The notes beneath the pieces are model-generated. The model worked only from the letters and a program-made list of their open reading frames with translations, ran no database searches and was not told where the DNA came from. This document shows positions 5,090 through 24,855 of a DNA stretch of 36,045 nucleotides, one piece after another. The stretch covers positions 1 to 36,045 of the forward strand of contig JAUSMW010000057.1 in the NCBI GenBank assembly GCA_030645815.1, read 5' to 3'. The position numbers and the translations under genes are program-made. This stretch comes from Candidatus Saccharimonadota bacterium (GTDB taxonomy: Bacteria; Patescibacteriota; Saccharimonadia; Saccharimonadales; Saccharimonadaceae). Every line of letters starts with the position of its first letter. Position 1 is the first letter of the stretch.

Positions 5090-5743
5090 TTAAGCAACAA
5101 GCAGTTTGTTTTCTATTTTTGTTACGCCTGGCGCACTCCATGCGGCAAGTTTTGCATCATTCATTTCAGAAAATGAATGAACTTTTCCGGATAAAGTGAC
5201 AGTGCCGCCGTTAATCGCGACATTAATTTGCTTGGCTTCACGCAGGGCCTCTCTCTTGAGAGCGTCTTCAATTTTTTGTTTAACGACGCCCGCCTGAACC
5301 TCTCTTGTTTTTAAAATAATATTATTTGACACCCCTTTTACGCCGGTTAGGCTGCGAACCAATTTTTCAGCTGCATTGCGCTGATAATTCCATTCAACTT
5401 CACCCGTCAGTTTAACCCACCCATTCTCAACACTGACCTTAATCAATTTATCTGGAATTTCTACATTCCAAAGGAATGAGTTAAGAACCGCCTCCGCAAT
5501 ATCCAGATCATCCTTTTCATACAAACTGGGTAACTTAACCTCTATCTTTTCAACCACTGCTTTAACTCCCGCCACGCGTTGAGCCGCGCGCTCCGCAGCA
5601 GATTTTTCAATGTAGCTTGGAATAGTACCTGAGAGGGCGACTATTCCATCAGTAACTGCAACACCAATGTGTTCATGCGACACGCGCGGATCCCATATCA
5701 ACTCTTGCATAACATCTGCTTGAATTTGTGAATCTGTTTTCAT
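5090..5743 (-). CDS. OsmY-like protein with three BON domains
   Basis: This 217-aa protein holds three consecutive BON domains, at about residues 5-70, 75-140 and 150-217. Each has the typical pattern of a helix followed by V.NGWVKLTGEV- or GGTVTLSGKV-type strands with the conserved glycine. BON domains are thought to bind phospholipid, as in E. coli OsmY. No signal peptide is evident at the chosen start ATG 5743 (MKTDSQIQADV), which has AAGGAG eight bases upstream, so this version is probably cytoplasmic. Three-BON proteins are usually stress-induced. The upstream region carries two imperfect direct copies of TTGA-GAACCAAT (5784-5795 and 5805-5817), candidates for a regulator site. The heptamer array follows its stop. 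Confidence 0.88.
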   Translation of the reverse strand: MKTDSQIQADVMQELIWDPRVSHEHIGVAVTDGIVALSGTIPSYIEKSAAERAAQRVAGVKAVVEKIEVKLPSLYEKDDLDIAEAVLNSFLWNVEIPDKLIKVSVENGWVKLTGEVEWNYQRNAAEKLVRSLTGVKGVSNNIILKTREVQAGVVKQKIEDALKREALREAKQINVAINGGTVTLSGKVHSFSEMNDAKLAAWSAPGVTKIENKLLVA

Positions 5744-6259
5744 GACAAAACTCCTTCCCGGTTTAGGATAAAAGCTCTCAGGATTGAGAACCAATCATGC
5801 AAATTTGATGAACCAATTTTGGCCATGAAAAATGGTTTTGTCTGTCGGATATCGAACTAAATTCAGGGTATTTAGGCACATTAATAAATTTCAATTACCT
5901 ACATAAAAAATGGATTTTGTAAATTATTACGCTTGCTTTTAATTCTTTGGAAGTAACAAATTAATGGCTTATGACATAATTTATTTATGTACATCCTCGT
6001 AAATACAAGGATGTTATCGATAGATAAAATCGCATGATATGCTGGTCATCACGCGGGGATTATTCTTGTCCCGTGCAATACTGAGAGCCTATTTACCGGG
6101 TATTTATTTTTCAGCCTGTTTTCAAATTCCTGCTTACCTAAAACACATCGCATAAAAAACCTTGGTCTTATCCATCGCCATTAACAACAGTATTATTTGA
6201 GCCCGAACGGCACCTGTAACAACAAAGCAAGTGAAAGTAGTTTCGGAAAAAGGAGTCAA
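5744..6259. promoter_or_regulatory. Divergent intergenic region with repeated TTGA-GAACCAAT words
   Basis: This 516 bp gap separates the minus-strand BON gene from the plus-strand kinase fusion, so it must hold both promoters. GATTGAGAACCAATC (5782-5796) is an inverted repeat of GATTG/CAATC. A second related word, TTGATGAACCAAT, starts at 5805, giving a direct repeat with about two helical turns between starts. AT-rich sequence fills 5880-6010. I could not identify a sigma factor motif with confidence. Confidence 0.35.
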
Positions 6260-14724: not shown

Positions 14725-15165
14725 TTAGTCAATTTTAATTTCTATATTTTTGTGGGCACTTTGCGCCGTTTTAGGAATATGCAATTGCAGTACACCATTC
14801 TTAAATGAAGCTTCAATTTTCGCTTCATTTACATAAGATGGTAATGTGAAGCTACGGCTGAAATTTCCATAATACCGTTCAATTCGGTGGTATTTTTTAC
14901 CGCTCTCTTCTCGCTCTTGCTTTTTTTCTCCTTGAATCGTGAGCACACCTTCCTCGACGCTGACTTTGACATCCTCTTTTTTCACGTCAGGAATATCGGC
15001 TTTAATAACCAACTCACTGTCAGTTTCGCTTATATCCACGCGCGGTGCCCAATCATCTTTTGAAATTAGTTCTTGATCGCCATTTAAAGGCCATCCAAGT
15101 GATCTGGCATAGTTATCGAACATATTTTCAATATTGTTTAATGGTGCCCATTTAACGAGTGACAT
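14725..15165 (-). CDS. Hsp20 / alpha-crystallin family small heat-shock protein
   Basis: This 146-aa protein has the alpha-crystallin domain at about residues 40-140. It contains PRVDISETDSELVIKADIPD, V.V.EGVLTIQGEK, the ERYYGNFSRSFTLP stretch and the A.F.NGVL.L.IPK motif close to the end. Such proteins hold unfolding proteins in a refoldable state as ATP-independent oligomeric chaperones in the cytoplasm. The ATG at 15165 has AGGAG seven bases upstream. A hairpin lies about 30-60 bases upstream in the transcript and can form an alternative pairing with the ribosome-binding site, a possible thermosensor. It is next to the universal stress protein gene. Confidence 0.92.
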   Translation of the reverse strand: MSLVKWAPLNNIENMFDNYARSLGWPLNGDQELISKDDWAPRVDISETDSELVIKADIPDVKKEDVKVSVEEGVLTIQGEKKQEREESGKKYHRIERYYGNFSRSFTLPSYVNEAKIEASFKNGVLQLHIPKTAQSAHKNIEIKID

Positions 15166-15358: not shown

Positions 15359-15799
15359 TCATGTTGTAGTTGCTACACGCACAGCCAGAACATCACATTT
15401 ACTGCCATGCAAAACACCATTGGCGGTTGAACCTAGTAGTAATGAAAAACCGCTGCGACCATGGCTTCCCACCACAATCAGATCAGCACAAAGATCATCT
15501 GCAAGTTCATGAATTTTTTTAGCGGAGGAACCTAGCAATAAATGCTGATGTGTTTCCAGAACTTGAAAACGATTGCCAAATGTTTTCAGTTGAAGTTTTG
15601 CATGCCGTTCAGATTCGAGCTCCAAACTGGCCAGGTCCACCACTATATTTTCATTGTAGGGAAAATAAAACGGCTCAACGACGTGAACGATATGGAGGTT
15701 GCTGTTGTGCGTTTTGCTAATACTCTGGGCACGCTCGATTACTTCATTTGATTCTTTGGTAAGGTCTATTGCCACAAGGATAGTGTGGTATGTTTTCAT
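15359..15799 (-). CDS. Universal stress protein (UspA family)
   Basis: This 146-aa single-domain protein starts with the typical HTILVAIDLTKES strand-loop. It ends with the ATP-binding pattern G-2x-G-9x-G-S, visible as GSHGRSGFSLLLGSTANGVL, followed by the last strand DVLAVRV. It therefore belongs to the ATP-binding UspA-type group. The role is a cytoplasmic stress protein, and the exact mechanism is not known for the family. GGGAG lies eight bases upstream of the ATG. Its neighbours are hsp20 downstream and acetate kinase upstream, a grouping seen in low-oxygen or dormancy clusters of other bacteria. Confidence 0.9.
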   Translation of the reverse strand: MKTYHTILVAIDLTKESNEVIERAQSISKTHNSNLHIVHVVEPFYFPYNENIVVDLASLELESERHAKLQLKTFGNRFQVLETHQHLLLGSSAKKIHELADDLCADLIVVGSHGRSGFSLLLGSTANGVLHGSKCDVLAVRVATTT

Positions 15800-15909: not shown

Positions 15910-17175
15910 CTATGGTAATTCTCTCGAATCGGAACACCTAACCGGGAGCATTTGCGCCACCGATCGTGCAATCATTAGTTCCTCATTGGTGTGAATAACA
16001 TAAACTTTAACCCTGCTGCCAACCGCTGATATGAGCGACTCATTTTTGGCATTCGACGCTTTATTCAGTTTTATACCGAGAAATTCAAGCCCTTCACACA
16101 TGCGCGCACGAATCACTGGTGCATGCTCACCAATGCCACCGGTGAAGACTACTGTATCAAGGCCACCCAGAGCAGCAGCATAAGCTCCCAGGTATTTCTT
16201 GGCCTGATAACAAAACATCGCAACGGCTTCTGCTGCGCGCGGATCAGTAGTTTCATTCTCCAGCAGCACGCGCATATCAGAACTGGTTTCCGAAACCCCG
16301 AGTAGACCCGACTCATAGTTGACCATATGGCGCAATTGAATACCGGTCATCTTTTTATTTTGCATAAGATAGCTAATTAAACCCGGATCAAGATCGCCAC
16401 TGCGAGTACTCATGGGAATACCGCTCGCGGGCGTAAAACACATACTTGTATCAATACTCTTGCCATTGAGCACCGCAGCCATACTCGCACCGTTTCCAAG
16501 ATGAGCGAGAATCACCCGCCCCTCCGTTGCCGCAATCTCACCCAGAGATTCGAGCTCCTGCATTAAATAGGCATAGGAAAGCCCATGAAAGCCATAACGC
16601 TGCGCACCGTTTTCAGTAAACCGGCGAGGAATGGGTAACAGTTTTGCAACTCGTGGAATGCTTCGGTGAAATGCCGTATCAAAACACGCCACTTGTATCA
16701 GCGTGGGGTGACGCCAAAACAAGGTTTCAATAATTTCAATCTCTTGGGGTAAGTGATCAGGATCGAAGGGGCTAATGTGATGCAACTCGGTAAGAAGCGA
16801 TTGCGATACCTGTTCTGGTGCAGTGTGATGCATACCGTGAACTACACGATGACCAACGGTTTTAATGGAACTAAAACAATCTTGTTGTTCGAACCAGTGA
16901 ATCAAAAAATTAATAATCGATTTTCGATCAGTGGCTGTCAAATCGCGTTGATCGAGTATTTCTCCCTGGGCATTTTTTACTACGAAGGGACTAGTCTTGC
17001 CCCCTAGTTTTTCGATTTCTCCTTGTAATAGGAGCTGCAGCGGCTCTGCGTGCTGATACAACGCAAACTTAATACTGGAAGAACCCGCATTAAATACTAA
17101 GATCGACTGGGCAGAACTCGATTCACGTATAAGCGTATTTACATCATTCGCGTGAATAGCTTTTGAATTGCTCAT
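15910..17175 (-). CDS. ackA: Acetate kinase
   Basis: This 421-aa protein has all the acetokinase family signatures: NAGSSSIKFALY near the N-terminus, HRVVHG, FDTAFHRSIP, ILAHLGNGASMAAV, TRSGDLDPG and FTGGIGEHAPVIR. It converts acetyl phosphate and ADP to acetate and ATP in the cytoplasm. ATG 17175 overlaps the stop of the upstream 6PGDH-like gene as ATGA, so the two are translationally coupled. In this setting it should serve the acetyl phosphate made by the phosphoketolase encoded at 22456-24855, rather than phosphotransacetylase. No pta gene is present in the window. The N-terminus before SILVFNAG is about 25 residues longer than in typical AckA. Confidence 0.93.
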   Translation of the reverse strand: MSNSKAIHANDVNTLIRESSSAQSILVFNAGSSSIKFALYQHAEPLQLLLQGEIEKLGGKTSPFVVKNAQGEILDQRDLTATDRKSIINFLIHWFEQQDCFSSIKTVGHRVVHGMHHTAPEQVSQSLLTELHHISPFDPDHLPQEIEIIETLFWRHPTLIQVACFDTAFHRSIPRVAKLLPIPRRFTENGAQRYGFHGLSYAYLMQELESLGEIAATEGRVILAHLGNGASMAAVLNGKSIDTSMCFTPASGIPMSTRSGDLDPGLISYLMQNKKMTGIQLRHMVNYESGLLGVSETSSDMRVLLENETTDPRAAEAVAMFCYQAKKYLGAYAAALGGLDTVVFTGGIGEHAPVIRARMCEGLEFLGIKLNKASNAKNESLISAVGSRVKVYVIHTNEELMIARSVAQMLPVRCSDSRELP

Positions 17176-18260
17176 TGATTCAACACCGACTGATAATCCG
17201 GGCATACTTTCTGGTAGCCATGCTTCATTAGTCGCTCTAGCACATTGCTGTCGCTCTGCGCTTCGTCATAATCATTGTATTCGCGGCACATCGCGGATAG
17301 CATTTTATCGGTGAAGGCAGCCACTTCCCTGCTTGCACTATATCGATCGTAATTTGACTCATGGGATTGAATTCGCCAGTTTCTTTTTAAACCACGATAG
17401 GCAGCTTCTTTTTTTGTGGTGTGGGGTGTTGGCGATATAACCGCATTCTTATCAACCGGAAGGACAAATATTTTTTGTTCGGACTCTTTTAACAACGCAG
17501 TGGCCATTAAATCCAAATGCCTGCTGCCCCGATTCCAGATTTTGGCAATTGTGCGCAGCCCTAGTGAATGGAAACTTGCACCCTGCTGCACATCGGACTG
17601 CTCCACGCGCGACTTGATTTTCACCCGCTTTAGATCTTTCATCCCCTCGGCGTAAGCGCCCATCAGGCCATACTCAATCGCATTGCGAATCATTTTTACA
17701 AAGTGTCCTGCACCGTTAGGGCCACAATGCAAATAGCCAGGTTGGGCCCCATTGGCAGAGCGAATACTTTCAACTGACTCATGTCCGGCCGTCGTTTTTC
17801 CCTGACTGAGGGTGTCGAATATATCGGTAAGTTTTTCCACAATTTTGTGGTCACCACCGATCAACAGGCGATAGCCGTGCAGCAACCCCAACTGACCACC
17901 ACATGCACAACAATCCAGATAATGGACCCCATTTCTCCCGAGCTTTTTAGCTCGCACTATATCGTCCATGTAATAAGAGTTGCCGCCATCAACAAGTATG
18001 TCGCCCGCACTGAGGTGAGGAGCCAAATCTATCAGCAGCTGATCCATAAGTGCTTCCGGAGCGGTGATCCAGATAATTCGTGGCGCTGGTAGCTGTTGAA
18101 TAAATTTTTCCAACGAGAAGGTAATCATGGCGTTTTCTTCCGCCAAGGCTTCCACGGCAATGGGAGAGCTATTTAGAACAACGCATTCATGATTACCGCG
18201 TAACAACTTGCGGGTAAGGTGCGTACCCATATTGCCAAAACCGATCATTCCAAGCCGCAT
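17172..18260 (-). CDS. 6-phosphogluconate dehydrogenase-like protein (short, NAD-type)
   Basis: This 362-aa protein has the short 6PGDH layout: an N-terminal Rossmann GMIGFGNMG, then ILVDGGNSYY, a substrate loop, and GPNGAGHFVKMIRNAIEYG. The family makes ribulose 5-phosphate and CO2 from 6-phosphogluconate. Two sites differ from what I expect: the usual SGG of the substrate loop is CGG (ACGGQLG), and the KMVHNGIEYG motif has R for H and A for G. The C-terminal third lacks the expected DSGEGRW stretch, although FTDKMLSAM near the end is recognisable. It may be active with altered specificity or be decaying. ATG 18260 has GGGG six bases upstream. It is coupled to ackA by a 4 bp overlap. Confidence 0.82.
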   Translation of the reverse strand: MRLGMIGFGNMGTHLTRKLLRGNHECVVLNSSPIAVEALAEENAMITFSLEKFIQQLPAPRIIWITAPEALMDQLLIDLAPHLSAGDILVDGGNSYYMDDIVRAKKLGRNGVHYLDCCACGGQLGLLHGYRLLIGGDHKIVEKLTDIFDTLSQGKTTAGHESVESIRSANGAQPGYLHCGPNGAGHFVKMIRNAIEYGLMGAYAEGMKDLKRVKIKSRVEQSDVQQGASFHSLGLRTIAKIWNRGSRHLDLMATALLKESEQKIFVLPVDKNAVISPTPHTTKKEAAYRGLKRNWRIQSHESNYDRYSASREVAAFTDKMLSAMCREYNDYDEAQSDSNVLERLMKHGYQKVCPDYQSVLNQ

Positions 18261-18266
18261 AACCAT

Positions 18267-18662: not shown

Positions 18663-19544
18663 TTACTCAGGCTCTGACATGACACATTTTTTCGTCGCTT
18701 GAATTAAATTTTGTTTTAAATAGATGCATGATCCATATCTGAAACAATAGACGCATTTTGGATCAATTAAACTATTCGGCCTTGCAGCATACGCACTGGC
18801 AACCGGCAAGGTTATTGATAATAACGGAATTAATCTGCTCGCTTCACGCGCTAGAATTCGATAGCACTCGCAGGCGAGTTTCTCAAGCTTGGTGCGATCA
18901 AGCACAGTAATGTGTCCACGATGATAGTCAATTACGCCAAGCACTTGCAGTTTAACAGCAGCCTCAGAGACCCCCTCTCGACGAACACCCAGCATGATTG
19001 ACGCCAGCTCCTGAGTTAATGTGAGGTTATTACAGGGTAGACGATCTAGTGATAGCAGGAGTAATTTACAAAATTGCTGCTCGATTGTGTGATGACGATT
19101 ACAGGCTGCTGCCATAGATGCCTGAGTCATAAGTGTTTGAATGTAGCGAAGAAATAATAACAAAGTATGTTTATTCGAATGGAATACATCTTGAACGGCT
19201 TGCTTGGGTAACCGATATGCGACACCGGCATTCATCACATATGCTTTGGTGCTAGCGTTTTCACCGCTTAACAGATTCAATACACCTACTAATCCGTCAT
19301 TACCTACCACTGCAACTTCTGTTATTGAGCCAGTGGTGCCTACAAATATCAAAGAAACAATTGAATCAATTGGAAAATAGACAAACTCTAACGGCACATT
19401 GATATCAATTAGAATATCGCCTCGCTTCAGCGAGACAGGTTCAGCCAAAGCAACCAAACGCTCCTTGATACTTTCAGACAAGGCGGAAAATAAATGATTT
19501 TGATCATGCAGGGGGAGCTGTTCCCTAACCAAATTTTTTTTCAT
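18663..19544 (-). CDS. Crp/Fnr family regulator with C-terminal cysteine tail (paralogue 1)
   Basis: This 293-aa protein has an N-terminal cyclic-nucleotide-binding-like domain (about 15-135, with AVVGNDGLVGVLNLLSG in place of a cAMP pocket). A Crp-type winged helix follows (about 150-230): LTLTQELASIMLGVRREGVSEA is the recognition HTH, and RGHITVLDR-LEKLACECY ends it. The usual family member stops soon after CECY. Here about 60 further residues follow, containing C264, C267, C273 and C287 spaced C-X2-C-X5-C-X13-C, a pattern able to hold a metal or Fe-S cluster. The ligand is unknown. A palindrome lies just upstream (GCCAGA-ATC-TCTGGC, 19572-19586). Paralogue 2 lies immediately upstream. Confidence 0.88.
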   Translation of the reverse strand: MKKNLVREQLPLHDQNHLFSALSESIKERLVALAEPVSLKRGDILIDINVPLEFVYFPIDSIVSLIFVGTTGSITEVAVVGNDGLVGVLNLLSGENASTKAYVMNAGVAYRLPKQAVQDVFHSNKHTLLLFLRYIQTLMTQASMAAACNRHHTIEQQFCKLLLLSLDRLPCNNLTLTQELASIMLGVRREGVSEAAVKLQVLGVIDYHRGHITVLDRTKLEKLACECYRILAREASRLIPLLSITLPVASAYAARPNSLIDPKCVYCFRYGSCIYLKQNLIQATKKCVMSEPE

Positions 19545-19884
19545 AAATATCTATCCCAGAATTTTTATATAGCCAGAATCTCTGGCCTTCATTAGCATCG
19601 CAAAAACATTTACAAAATAAGCAAAAATAAAAGGAGGTGGGAAGGTGGGAAGGTGGGAAATTTATTGATTAAACAATCTGGAGCACCGCGACACAAGCAT
19701 GCATAGTATAGGAGATGTCACCTATTAACTCAGATCAAATTCCTATTAAGAAACCACATTATATAGCAGCTTAAGGCAAGTGAAAAAATGTAACCGGAAT
19801 CAAATTTAATAACCGAAAGATTACTTTGATCTGTAATTCGTTATCTCAATTTTCGTACGACAAAACATTCTGTGGCACATTAAG
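19545..19884. promoter_or_regulatory. Gap between the two Crp/Fnr genes: palindrome and G-rich triplet repeat
   Basis: GCCAGA-ATC-TCTGGC at 19572-19586 is a perfect 15 bp palindrome, 28 bp before the first Crp/Fnr start. It is well placed for an operator, perhaps autoregulatory. At 19636-19659 there are three perfect direct copies of GGTGGGAA. With the preceding GGA these give enough G runs for a G-quadruplex on the plus strand. Nothing else is recognised. Confidence 0.5.
19636..19659 (+). repeat. Three tandem copies of GGTGGGAA
   Basis: The octamer GGTGGGAA occurs three times without a break, preceded by AAAGGA. The G runs on the plus strand are opposite to the transcribed direction of both flanking Crp/Fnr genes. 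Short pure arrays of this kind can change length or fold into a quadruplex. Confidence 0.9.
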
Positions 19885-20769
19885 CTATTGTTCGAGTTCT
19901 GATCTGACGCATTTTTTCGTCGCTTGAATTAAATTTTGTTTTAAATAGATACATGAGCCGTATCGGAAACAATAGACGCATTTGGGATCAATTAAACTAT
20001 TCGGTCGCGCCGCATAAGCAGCGGCAACCGGTATGTTAATTGGCGATGAGGGGGGAGGGCAACTCGTTTCATTCGCTAATATCGCGTAACACTCGCAGCT
20101 TAGCTTTTGAAGTTTAGGCCGATGAAGTACCGTAATGTGGCCGCGGTGGTAATCAATAACCCCAAGGCCTTGTAGTTTTACAGCAGCCTCAGAGATACCT
20201 TCCCGACGAACACCGAGCATGGTTGACGCCACTTCTTGGGTGAGCATGAGATTATTGCAAGGTAAACGGTCTAGCGCGAGTAGCAGCAACTTGCAAAATT
20301 GCTGCTCGATTGTGTGGTGACGGATGCAGGCTGCGGTTACCGATGTCTGGGTTATAAGTGTTTGAATATAACGCAGGAATAAAAACAACGTATTGTCGTC
20401 TGAATGGAATTCATCATGAACGGGTTGCTTTGGTATCCGATAAGCGAAGCCAGCGCTCATCACAAATGCTTTGGTGCAGGTATTTTCACCACTTAACAAA
20501 CTAACTGCACCCACCAATCCATCATTACCTACCACCGCGACTTCTGTTGACGCTCCACTATTAACCACAAACAGCAATGACACTATTGCATCAATTGGAA
20601 AATAGACATATTCCAGTGGGGTGTCGTATTCAATCAATATTTCATCCCGTTTTAACCAAACAGGCTCGGCCAAAATACGCAAACGCTCTTTAGTCTCTTC
20701 GGGCAGGGCAGCAAATAAGTGATTTTGATCATGCAGAGGGAGCTGCGCCTTGGCCGAAGTCTTTTTCAT
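19885..20769 (-). CDS. Crp/Fnr family regulator with C-terminal cysteine tail (paralogue 2)
   Basis: This 294-aa protein is a tandem paralogue of the gene at 18663-19544. It is collinear without gaps and mostly identical in both the sensor part and the HTH (LMLTQEVASTMLGVRREGISEA). The linker at about 232-250 has diverged freely (a PPPSSP stretch here). By contrast residues 251-288 are identical in both proteins, including all four cysteines at 264, 267, 273 and 287. That contrast points to strong selection on the tail or to recent gene conversion at the 3' end. A Crp-type DNA-binding regulator with an unknown signal is the best description. It could control the surrounding stress genes and its paralogue. 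Confidence 0.88.
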   Translation of the reverse strand: MKKTSAKAQLPLHDQNHLFAALPEETKERLRILAEPVWLKRDEILIEYDTPLEYVYFPIDAIVSLLFVVNSGASTEVAVVGNDGLVGAVSLLSGENTCTKAFVMSAGFAYRIPKQPVHDEFHSDDNTLFLFLRYIQTLITQTSVTAACIRHHTIEQQFCKLLLLALDRLPCNNLMLTQEVASTMLGVRREGISEAAVKLQGLGVIDYHRGHITVLHRPKLQKLSCECYAILANETSCPPPSSPINIPVAAAYAARPNSLIDPKCVYCFRYGSCIYLKQNLIQATKKCVRSELEQ

Positions 20770-22455: not shown

Positions 22456-24855
22456 TCACTCCATTTTCCATTTCCAGTTGCGAATCTCTGGCATATCTTG
22501 CCCATATTTATTGATATACAAGCGGTGCTCTACCAGCTTTTCTTGCAACTGTTGCTTGAGATAAACACCTTTCTCGCCAGTTTGTGGAAGGCGCTCAATG
22601 GCTGCTATCACCAAATGAAAACGATCCATTTCATTTAATACCGTCAAATCAAACGGCGTGGTGATGGTGCCCTCTTCTTTGTAGCCATGCACATGGATAT
22701 TGGTGTGGTTAGTGCGCCTGTATGTGAGCTTATGTATAAGCGATGGGTAACCATGAAACGCAAAAATGATGGCCTTATCGCGAGTAAATAATTGATCGAA
22801 ATCACTCTCGCTTAAACCGTGCGGATGTGCGCTTTGCGGTTGCAAGCGCATAAGATCGACAACGTTAACCACACGAACAATAAGCGCGGGCAAGTGCTCG
22901 CGCAAAATCATTACCGCTGCCAGTGTTTCCAGCGTGGGCACATCACCACAGCAGGCCATAACTACGTCGGGTGCGACTGATTCATCATTGCTTGCCCATG
23001 GCCAAATCCCCACTCCTGCAGCGCAATGTTTTGCAGCAGCATCCATGTTTAGCCATTGCGGCGCAGGGTGTTTACCCGCAACGACGACATTCACATAGTG
23101 GCGACTACGCAAACAGTGATCCATTACCGAGAGCAAACAATTTGCATCCGGTGGAAGATACACGCGCACGACCTCGGCTTTTTTATTGACGACATGATCA
23201 ATAAAGCCAGGGTCCTGATGAGTGAAACCATTGTGATCCTGCCGCCAAACATGGGATGTCAGTAAATAATTCAGCGAGGCGATTTTGCCTCTCCAAGGAA
23301 TCTGTGCCGCCATCTTTAACCATTTGGCGTGTTGATTAAACATCGAGTCAACAATGTGAATAAAAGCTTCATAGCAATTGAATAAGCCGTGGCGGCCAGT
23401 GAGCAGATATCCTTCCAGCCAGCCCTGACATTGATGTTCACTGAGCATTGAATCCAACACGCGACCACTCGGCGCTAACCACTGATCATCCTTATTAATG
23501 TTTGCATCCCATTGTCGATCCGTAGCATCAAATACTGCACCCAAACCGTTGGATAGGGTTTCGTCCGGGCTAAAAATGCGGAAGTTGCGCTCATTCTGGT
23601 TTTTGGCCACAAGATCGCGCAAAAAGGTTCCCAGCACGCGGGTGTCACCTATGCCCTGCGTGCCTGGTGCAGGCACATCGGCGGCGTAAATTCGGTAATC
23701 AGGCAAGCGCAAATCGCGCAGCAGTAAACCGCCGTTCGCATGAAGGTTCGCACCCATACGGCGTAAACCTTGAGGTGCCAGATCAGCAAGGTCTGCGACC
23801 AGACGACCTCTTTCATCAAAAAGCTCTTCCGGCCTATAACTTTTGAGCCAATCCTCAATCATCTGTAGGTGTTCCGGGTGGCCGACGGGTGACGATACGG
23901 GTACTTGATGTGCGCGAAAGGTACCTTCCACAGGCAACCCATCTACCATCTTAGGGCCAGTCCAACCTTTTGGTGAGCGCAACACAATCACCGGCCACCG
24001 TGGGCGTTCCATGTGGTGATGCATCGACTTGGGAATCAACGCTTCCTGTTTAATATCGTTAATTTGTTCGATGGCACTATTAAGCGCACTCGCCATGGCC
24101 TGATGCATCAGCTCCGGGTCGTCACCTTCGACGAAATAAGGCGTCCAGCCATAACCACGCAACAACTGATCTAACTCTTCATGAGTAATGCGAGCTAACA
24201 GCGTGGGGTTTGCAATTTTGTAACCATTGAGATGAAGAATGGGCAACACCACACCATCGCTAATCGGGTTCAGAAATTTATTGGAATGCCAAGCTGTCGA
24301 CAGTGGCCCCGTTTCCGCTTCCCCATCGCCAATAACGCACGCGACGATTAAATCCGGATTATCAAACGCAGCGCCGAACGCATGGCTGAGTGAATAGCCG
24401 AGCTCGCCTCCTTCGTGAATCGAGCCGGGGCATTCGGGCGAGGCGTGGCTGGGAATTCCACCGGGAAAAGAGAACTGTAAAAAGAGCCGTTGCAAACCCG
24501 CTTCATCCCGGCTGATATTGGGATAAACCTCACTGTAGGTTCCTTCTAAATAAGTGTTAGCAACCACCGCTGGACCGCCGTGACCTGGCCCGCAGATGTA
24601 AATCATATTCAGGTCATATTGCTTGATGATGCGATTCAAGTGGACGTAAATAAAATTTTGTCCGGGAGTGGTTCCCCAGTGCCCCAAAAGCATGGGCTTG
24701 ATGTCTCTGATGCTCAACGGTCGTTTCAGTAATGGGTTATCGAATAAATAAATTTGCCCGACCGATAGATAATTGGCAGCGCGCCAATAAGCGTCCATCT
24801 TGCGCAATAACTCCGGGGACAGCGGTAATTCATGAGAAACCCTTAGCGTATGCAT
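22456..24855 (-). CDS. xfp: Xylulose-5-phosphate/fructose-6-phosphate phosphoketolase
   Basis: This 799-aa protein is full length for the family. The thiamine-diphosphate enzyme signatures are clear: [16 protein letters not shown], the phosphoketolase box [12 protein letters not shown] near residue 148, [10 protein letters not shown] for the ThDP/Mg site, and PKGWTGP. The C-terminal half carries [40 protein letters not shown] and [13 protein letters not shown]. It cleaves xylulose 5-phosphate (and often fructose 6-phosphate) with phosphate to acetyl phosphate plus glyceraldehyde 3-phosphate (or erythrose 4-phosphate). AckA, encoded about 5 kb downstream on the same strand, can then make ATP. 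AGGA lies seven bases before ATG 24855. The symbol follows general usage; the substrate range is not proven. Confidence 0.95.

Follow-up and report, generated by a model that had tools for sequence, protein, structure and literature searches.

A cysteine tail after the DNA-binding domain of tandem Crp/Fnr regulators, a candidate metal site

The regulator pair and its neighborhood

The window (the whole 36,045-nucleotide stretch analyzed here, contig JAUSMW010000057.1 of assembly GCA_030645815.1) encoded two Crp/Fnr regulators, A and B, and both open reading frames were present where the original prediction had placed them. The pair and its surroundings are listed below, with the basis of each assignment or its conservation in parentheses.

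22456..24855, minus strand: phosphoketolase, upstream neighbor of the pair (gene annotation)
19885..20769, minus strand: Crp/Fnr regulator A, 294 aa, with cysteine tail (ORF, Pfam, alignment)
19906..20019, minus strand: tail of A, residues 251-288, C264-X2-C267-X5-C273-X13-C287 (alignment, dN/dS counts)
18663..19544, minus strand: Crp/Fnr regulator B, 293 aa, with cysteine tail (ORF, Pfam, alignment)
18681..18794, minus strand: tail of B, residues 251-288, same protein sequence as the tail of A (alignment, dN/dS counts)
17172..18266, minus strand: 6-phosphogluconate dehydrogenase (6PGD)-like gene, next downstream of the pair (order conserved in UBA8526)
15910..17205, minus strand: acetate kinase (order conserved in UBA8526)
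15359..15799, minus strand: universal stress protein, Usp (order conserved in UBA8526)
14725..15165, minus strand: Hsp20 family chaperone (order conserved in UBA8526)
5090-5794: BON protein, elsewhere in the window

A and B were encoded in tandem and 76% identical as proteins. Their only Pfam matches above the cut-off were cNMP_binding (PF00027) and HTH_Crp_2 (PF13545), the cNMP-binding domain and Crp-type HTH by which the Crp/Fnr superfamily is recognized. The HTH match stopped at residue 223, and the remainder of both proteins had no Pfam match. A sequence search found no close solved structure for the regulators. Structural matches of the body were best to CRP folds and also included the A. 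fischeri FNR (5cvr), and AlphaFold2 (86 sequences) modeled the body confidently as a CRP fold. The body also held a set of conserved cysteines and histidines: in an alignment of relatives that were nearly all tail-less, C148, H152, C225, and C227 occurred in 85/85 rows with a residue at the position, C159 in 83, and H151 in 82. These six residues could form a further metal or redox site, common to the entire subfamily.

The MAG UBA8526, labeled Cellvibrio sp., had the same gene order as the window: the regulator pair, 6PGD-like gene, acetate kinase, Usp, Hsp20, PilZ, and GGDEF. Its regulator copy 1 was split over two contigs. Its second regulator (copy 2, L028:3-1234) was broken by an assembly gap, and the extreme C-terminus of this copy differed past the position of the fourth cysteine. 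The claim that the regulators sit among fermentative ATP genes and stress proteins was borne out by the 6PGD-like gene, acetate kinase, Usp, Hsp20, and phosphoketolase. This setting fits oxygen limitation and a low-oxygen or stress-type cluster, which is circumstantial evidence.

A scan for FNR boxes returned 6 matches against 2.8 expected, and no convincing, conserved FNR-type operator. A weak FNR-like palindrome, TTGATCTGAGTTAA, lies upstream of B on the minus strand at 19725-19738; we claim no operator there, and an assembly gap occupies the counterpart in UBA8526. Also upstream of B, at 19635-19659, a perfect 8-base direct repeat (AGGTGGGA on the plus strand) occurs three times and is possibly regulatory. 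A similar repeat, TTCCCATT, occurs three times at the same place in UBA8526.

The contig carries Mla, LysR, phosphoketolase, and PAS-GGDEF genes and matches UBA8526, and it is therefore probably gammaproteobacterial and binned by mistake into a small-genome MAG. The source assembly is 1.46 Mb with 6% contamination, and its listed relatives are ~0.5–1.2 Mb. Its other contigs carry genes that we take to be patescibacterial in look. A third Crp paralogue, on contig C133 (L003) of the source assembly, grouped with a UBA8526 protein. The best explanation for A and B is that they are paralogous one-component Crp-like regulators of the local fermentation/stress cluster, from a gammaproteobacterial source.

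Sequence, selection, and distribution of the tail

Residues 251-288 (38 residues) were identical in A and B, with cysteines at 264, 267, 273, and 287, in the C-X2-C-X5-C-X13-C pattern that the original prediction gave. Close tail-less proteobacterial Crp-like regulators had bodies up to 57% identical and shared the CECY motif (residues 225-228) and the core cysteines, but ended 12–37 residues past CECY without the cysteine tail. The added piece is therefore ~45–50 residues long; the extension past the normal end of the family was real, and the earlier figure of about 60 residues was somewhat generous. Searches with the tail alone, which the original prediction had proposed, gave no Pfam match at E up to 10 and a single chance match among solved structures (E 1.2), and neither a plasmid collection nor viral contigs contained a match. 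Other carriers were found among the genomes searched, not all of which had the fourth cysteine.

The linker before the tail had drifted as proposed, with dN ~0.4–0.5 between paralogues for residues 233-249 (0.54 for A vs B) compared with 0.02 for A vs B in the tail (residues 250-288). Between B and UBA8526 copy 1, the tail had silent differences at 19 of 23.2 sites and replacement differences at 1 of 93.8, and the tail protein is therefore under strong purifying selection. A DNA or RNA element was rejected as the reason for the conservation, since silent sites varied freely in the same comparison. Chance was excluded as the source of the A/B tail identity.

Gene conversion between the tandem copies is a further way to account for that identity. 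The two tails shared an identical DNA run of 41 bases, a length that arose in 21 of 10,000 random draws, and the tail of A had 11 silent differences from B and 22 from its own UBA8526 counterpart. The run and the greater nearness of A to B suggest conversion, and since the A vs B tail dS was 0.71 while that of the HTH was ~3, partial conversion probably explains part of the identity. Judged from these counts, A-vs-B identity by itself overstates constraint, and the clean evidence is the comparison of B with UBA8526 copy 1. That the identity is mostly a by-product of conversion, with little bearing on function, is nonetheless highly improbable: the comparison with UBA8526 copy 1, with silent sites saturated and that single replacement, largely refutes conversion as a full explanation, and three of the cysteines persisted in the diverged carrier described next.

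Whole-genome searches covered ~1,750 genomes, 100 of them relatives of the MAG and the rest proteobacterial (relatives, plus draws at order and class level centered on UBA8526, G150, and a Nitrosomonas genome). Across these, the tail was seen only in the window, in UBA8526, and, diverged, in genome G150 (protein L038), and tail-less relatives were many; presence was judged from match ranges with residue-level inspection of fetched loci (98 distinct proteins), so that a very diverged tail may be missed. By this sampling the tail appears rare and lineage-restricted. L038 was ~48% identical overall to the window regulators. Its tail read KCSSCFKATVC against KCVYCFRYGSC in the window, keeping three cysteines and their spacing within a common pattern, K-C-X2-C-F-[RK]-X3-C-X-Y-X-K, and lacking the fourth cysteine. 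A similarity this high was matched in 1 of 5,000 shuffles.

The CX2CX5C spacing was present in all carriers seen, which are three genomes and sample covariation thinly. Free loss of the cysteines in homologues, named earlier as evidence against a ligand set, did not extend to this core and did affect the fourth position, in L038. Since L038 keeps C-X2-C-X5-C without the fourth cysteine, the likely core is three cysteines and not four, with the fourth outside the shared part. In a tree built from the body only, with the tail left out, the carriers formed one clade with support of 96/99 and one change of state, although L038 sat on a long branch and the bootstrap was not fully settled. A quick tree agreed. 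The evidence for a single origin of the tail is good, though not conclusive.

What the tail may bind

Selection on the tail, together with the retention of C-X2-C-X5-C by a diverged relative, gives good support to a ligand-type cysteine tail C-terminal to the DNA-binding domain. The expectation of an Fe-S-type ligand set at this position stood as to placement and selection, and fell as to a four-cysteine set in every carrier. Metal binding by the tail is likely. AlphaFold2 gave the tail a pLDDT of ~50–65, mostly helical with no confident site, and such a model supports neither the presence nor the absence of a metal site.

From the observed tail, the selection on it, its single origin in the tree, and its three-cysteine core, we infer a metal, a cluster type, oxygen sensing, and target genes as follows. 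Each regulator would have gained a metal site C-terminal to its DNA-binding domain, where C264, C267, and C273 would hold an oxygen-labile [4Fe-4S] cluster and the fourth ligand would be C287 or another residue. Because the fourth cysteine is absent from L038, a fourth ligand there would come from elsewhere. Oxygen or an oxidant would cause loss of the cluster, the DNA-binding end would shift, and regulation would change. Between A and B the HTH domain and tail were conserved, whereas the linker and the N-terminal sensing domain diverged. The two regulators therefore probably share their DNA sites and the signal read by the tail and differ in their N-terminal input. Our main reading is C-terminal cluster sensing in a lineage-restricted variant of the Bacillus Fnr design, with [4Fe-4S] as the putative cofactor, and we give it a probability of about 0.5. 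The sharp prediction is that the three named cysteines are needed and the fourth is optional.

A small structural zinc knuckle that stabilizes the dimer or the C-terminal end and plays no part in redox sensing would give an identical sequence pattern. Cysteine quartets also serve as zinc sites, and conservation this strong and uniform would suit a structural role as well. Common zinc ribbons have a second CX2C pair, however, which the tail lacks, the fourth cysteine was not kept in L038, and the CX2CX5C precedents that we found, RseC and AhbD, are Fe-S; we consider zinc rather unlikely.

Two readings would dispense with a metal, and both are doubtful. The cysteines could act as a thiol/disulfide switch like that of FixK2, a Crp/Fnr protein that loses activity when a single cysteine close to its DNA-binding region is oxidized (PMC12937710), and the further conserved cysteines C148, C159, C225, and C227 in the body would be compatible with such control. 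A disulfide needs just one or two cysteines, though, and a CX2CX5C spacing fixed over large divergence is typical of metal ligands, which leaves the switch rather improbable. Alternatively, the tail could be a peptide that binds a partner or docks at a membrane, its cysteines having no ligand role. Conservation between close copies reaches beyond the cysteines to nearly all of the 38 residues, and AlphaFold2 predicts helices in this stretch, but in diverged L038 the cysteines stay and most other residues change, and we hold this reading to be quite improbable.

Comparison with known systems

The window regulators share superfamily and fold with classical FNR of the E. coli type but lack its N-terminal cluster cysteines. 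The first cysteine is residue 98 in A and 148 in B, so that residues 1-97 are cysteine-free in both and there is no classical N-terminal FNR site. The original prediction had drawn its comparison with this type alone and had missed a precedent that makes C-terminal placement not unprecedented: Fnr of B. subtilis and B. cereus has a C-terminal CX2CX4C with an oxygen-labile [4Fe-4S] cluster and Asp141 as the fourth ligand (PMC3520743; PMC12937710). When the literature was searched by exact phrase for Crp/Fnr proteins with C-terminal cysteine extensions, the Bacillus Fnr papers were all that turned up.

Like Bacillus Fnr, A and B are Crp/Fnr proteins with cysteines, here putative ligands, C-terminal to the HTH, a likeness of position only. 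Bacillus Fnr has CX2CX4C, whereas the window tail has CX2CX5C, followed after 13 residues by another cysteine; the window tail is also longer, sits behind a drifted linker, and is attached to a body from a proteobacterial Crp-like subfamily. CX2CX5C triads completed by a variable fourth ligand are known to bind Fe-S clusters. The three-cysteine spacing of the window tail is identical to that of RseC, whose CX2CX5C forms an oxygen-sensitive [4Fe-4S] cluster as demonstrated by reconstitution (PMC11729352), and of AhbD, whose C-terminal CX2CX5CX20-38C is assigned an auxiliary [4Fe-4S] cluster (PMC10452713). Both proteins are unrelated to the window regulators, and the spacing is a resemblance rather than homology. 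At the level of gene clusters, the low-oxygen-activated lxa locus of Burkholderia cenocepacia includes Usp, heat-shock, and BON proteins (PMC6127331), and such genes occur together there as in the window, a resemblance in gene content only.

A more elaborate proposal is convergence with Bacillus Fnr, in which a Crp-like lineage would have acquired, on its own, a [4Fe-4S] sensor with C-terminal CX2CX5C; with the cysteine/histidine set already present in the body, this would turn the duplicated regulators of a low-oxygen cluster into redox sensors with two sites. We offer this proposal tentatively, as a possibility with the odds against it. If an oxygen-labile cluster does sit in the tail, C-terminal oxygen sensing would have arisen not only in Bacillus but also on a proteobacterial body, and comparison with the close tail-less sisters would offer a natural control for the effect of an added cluster on a regulator.
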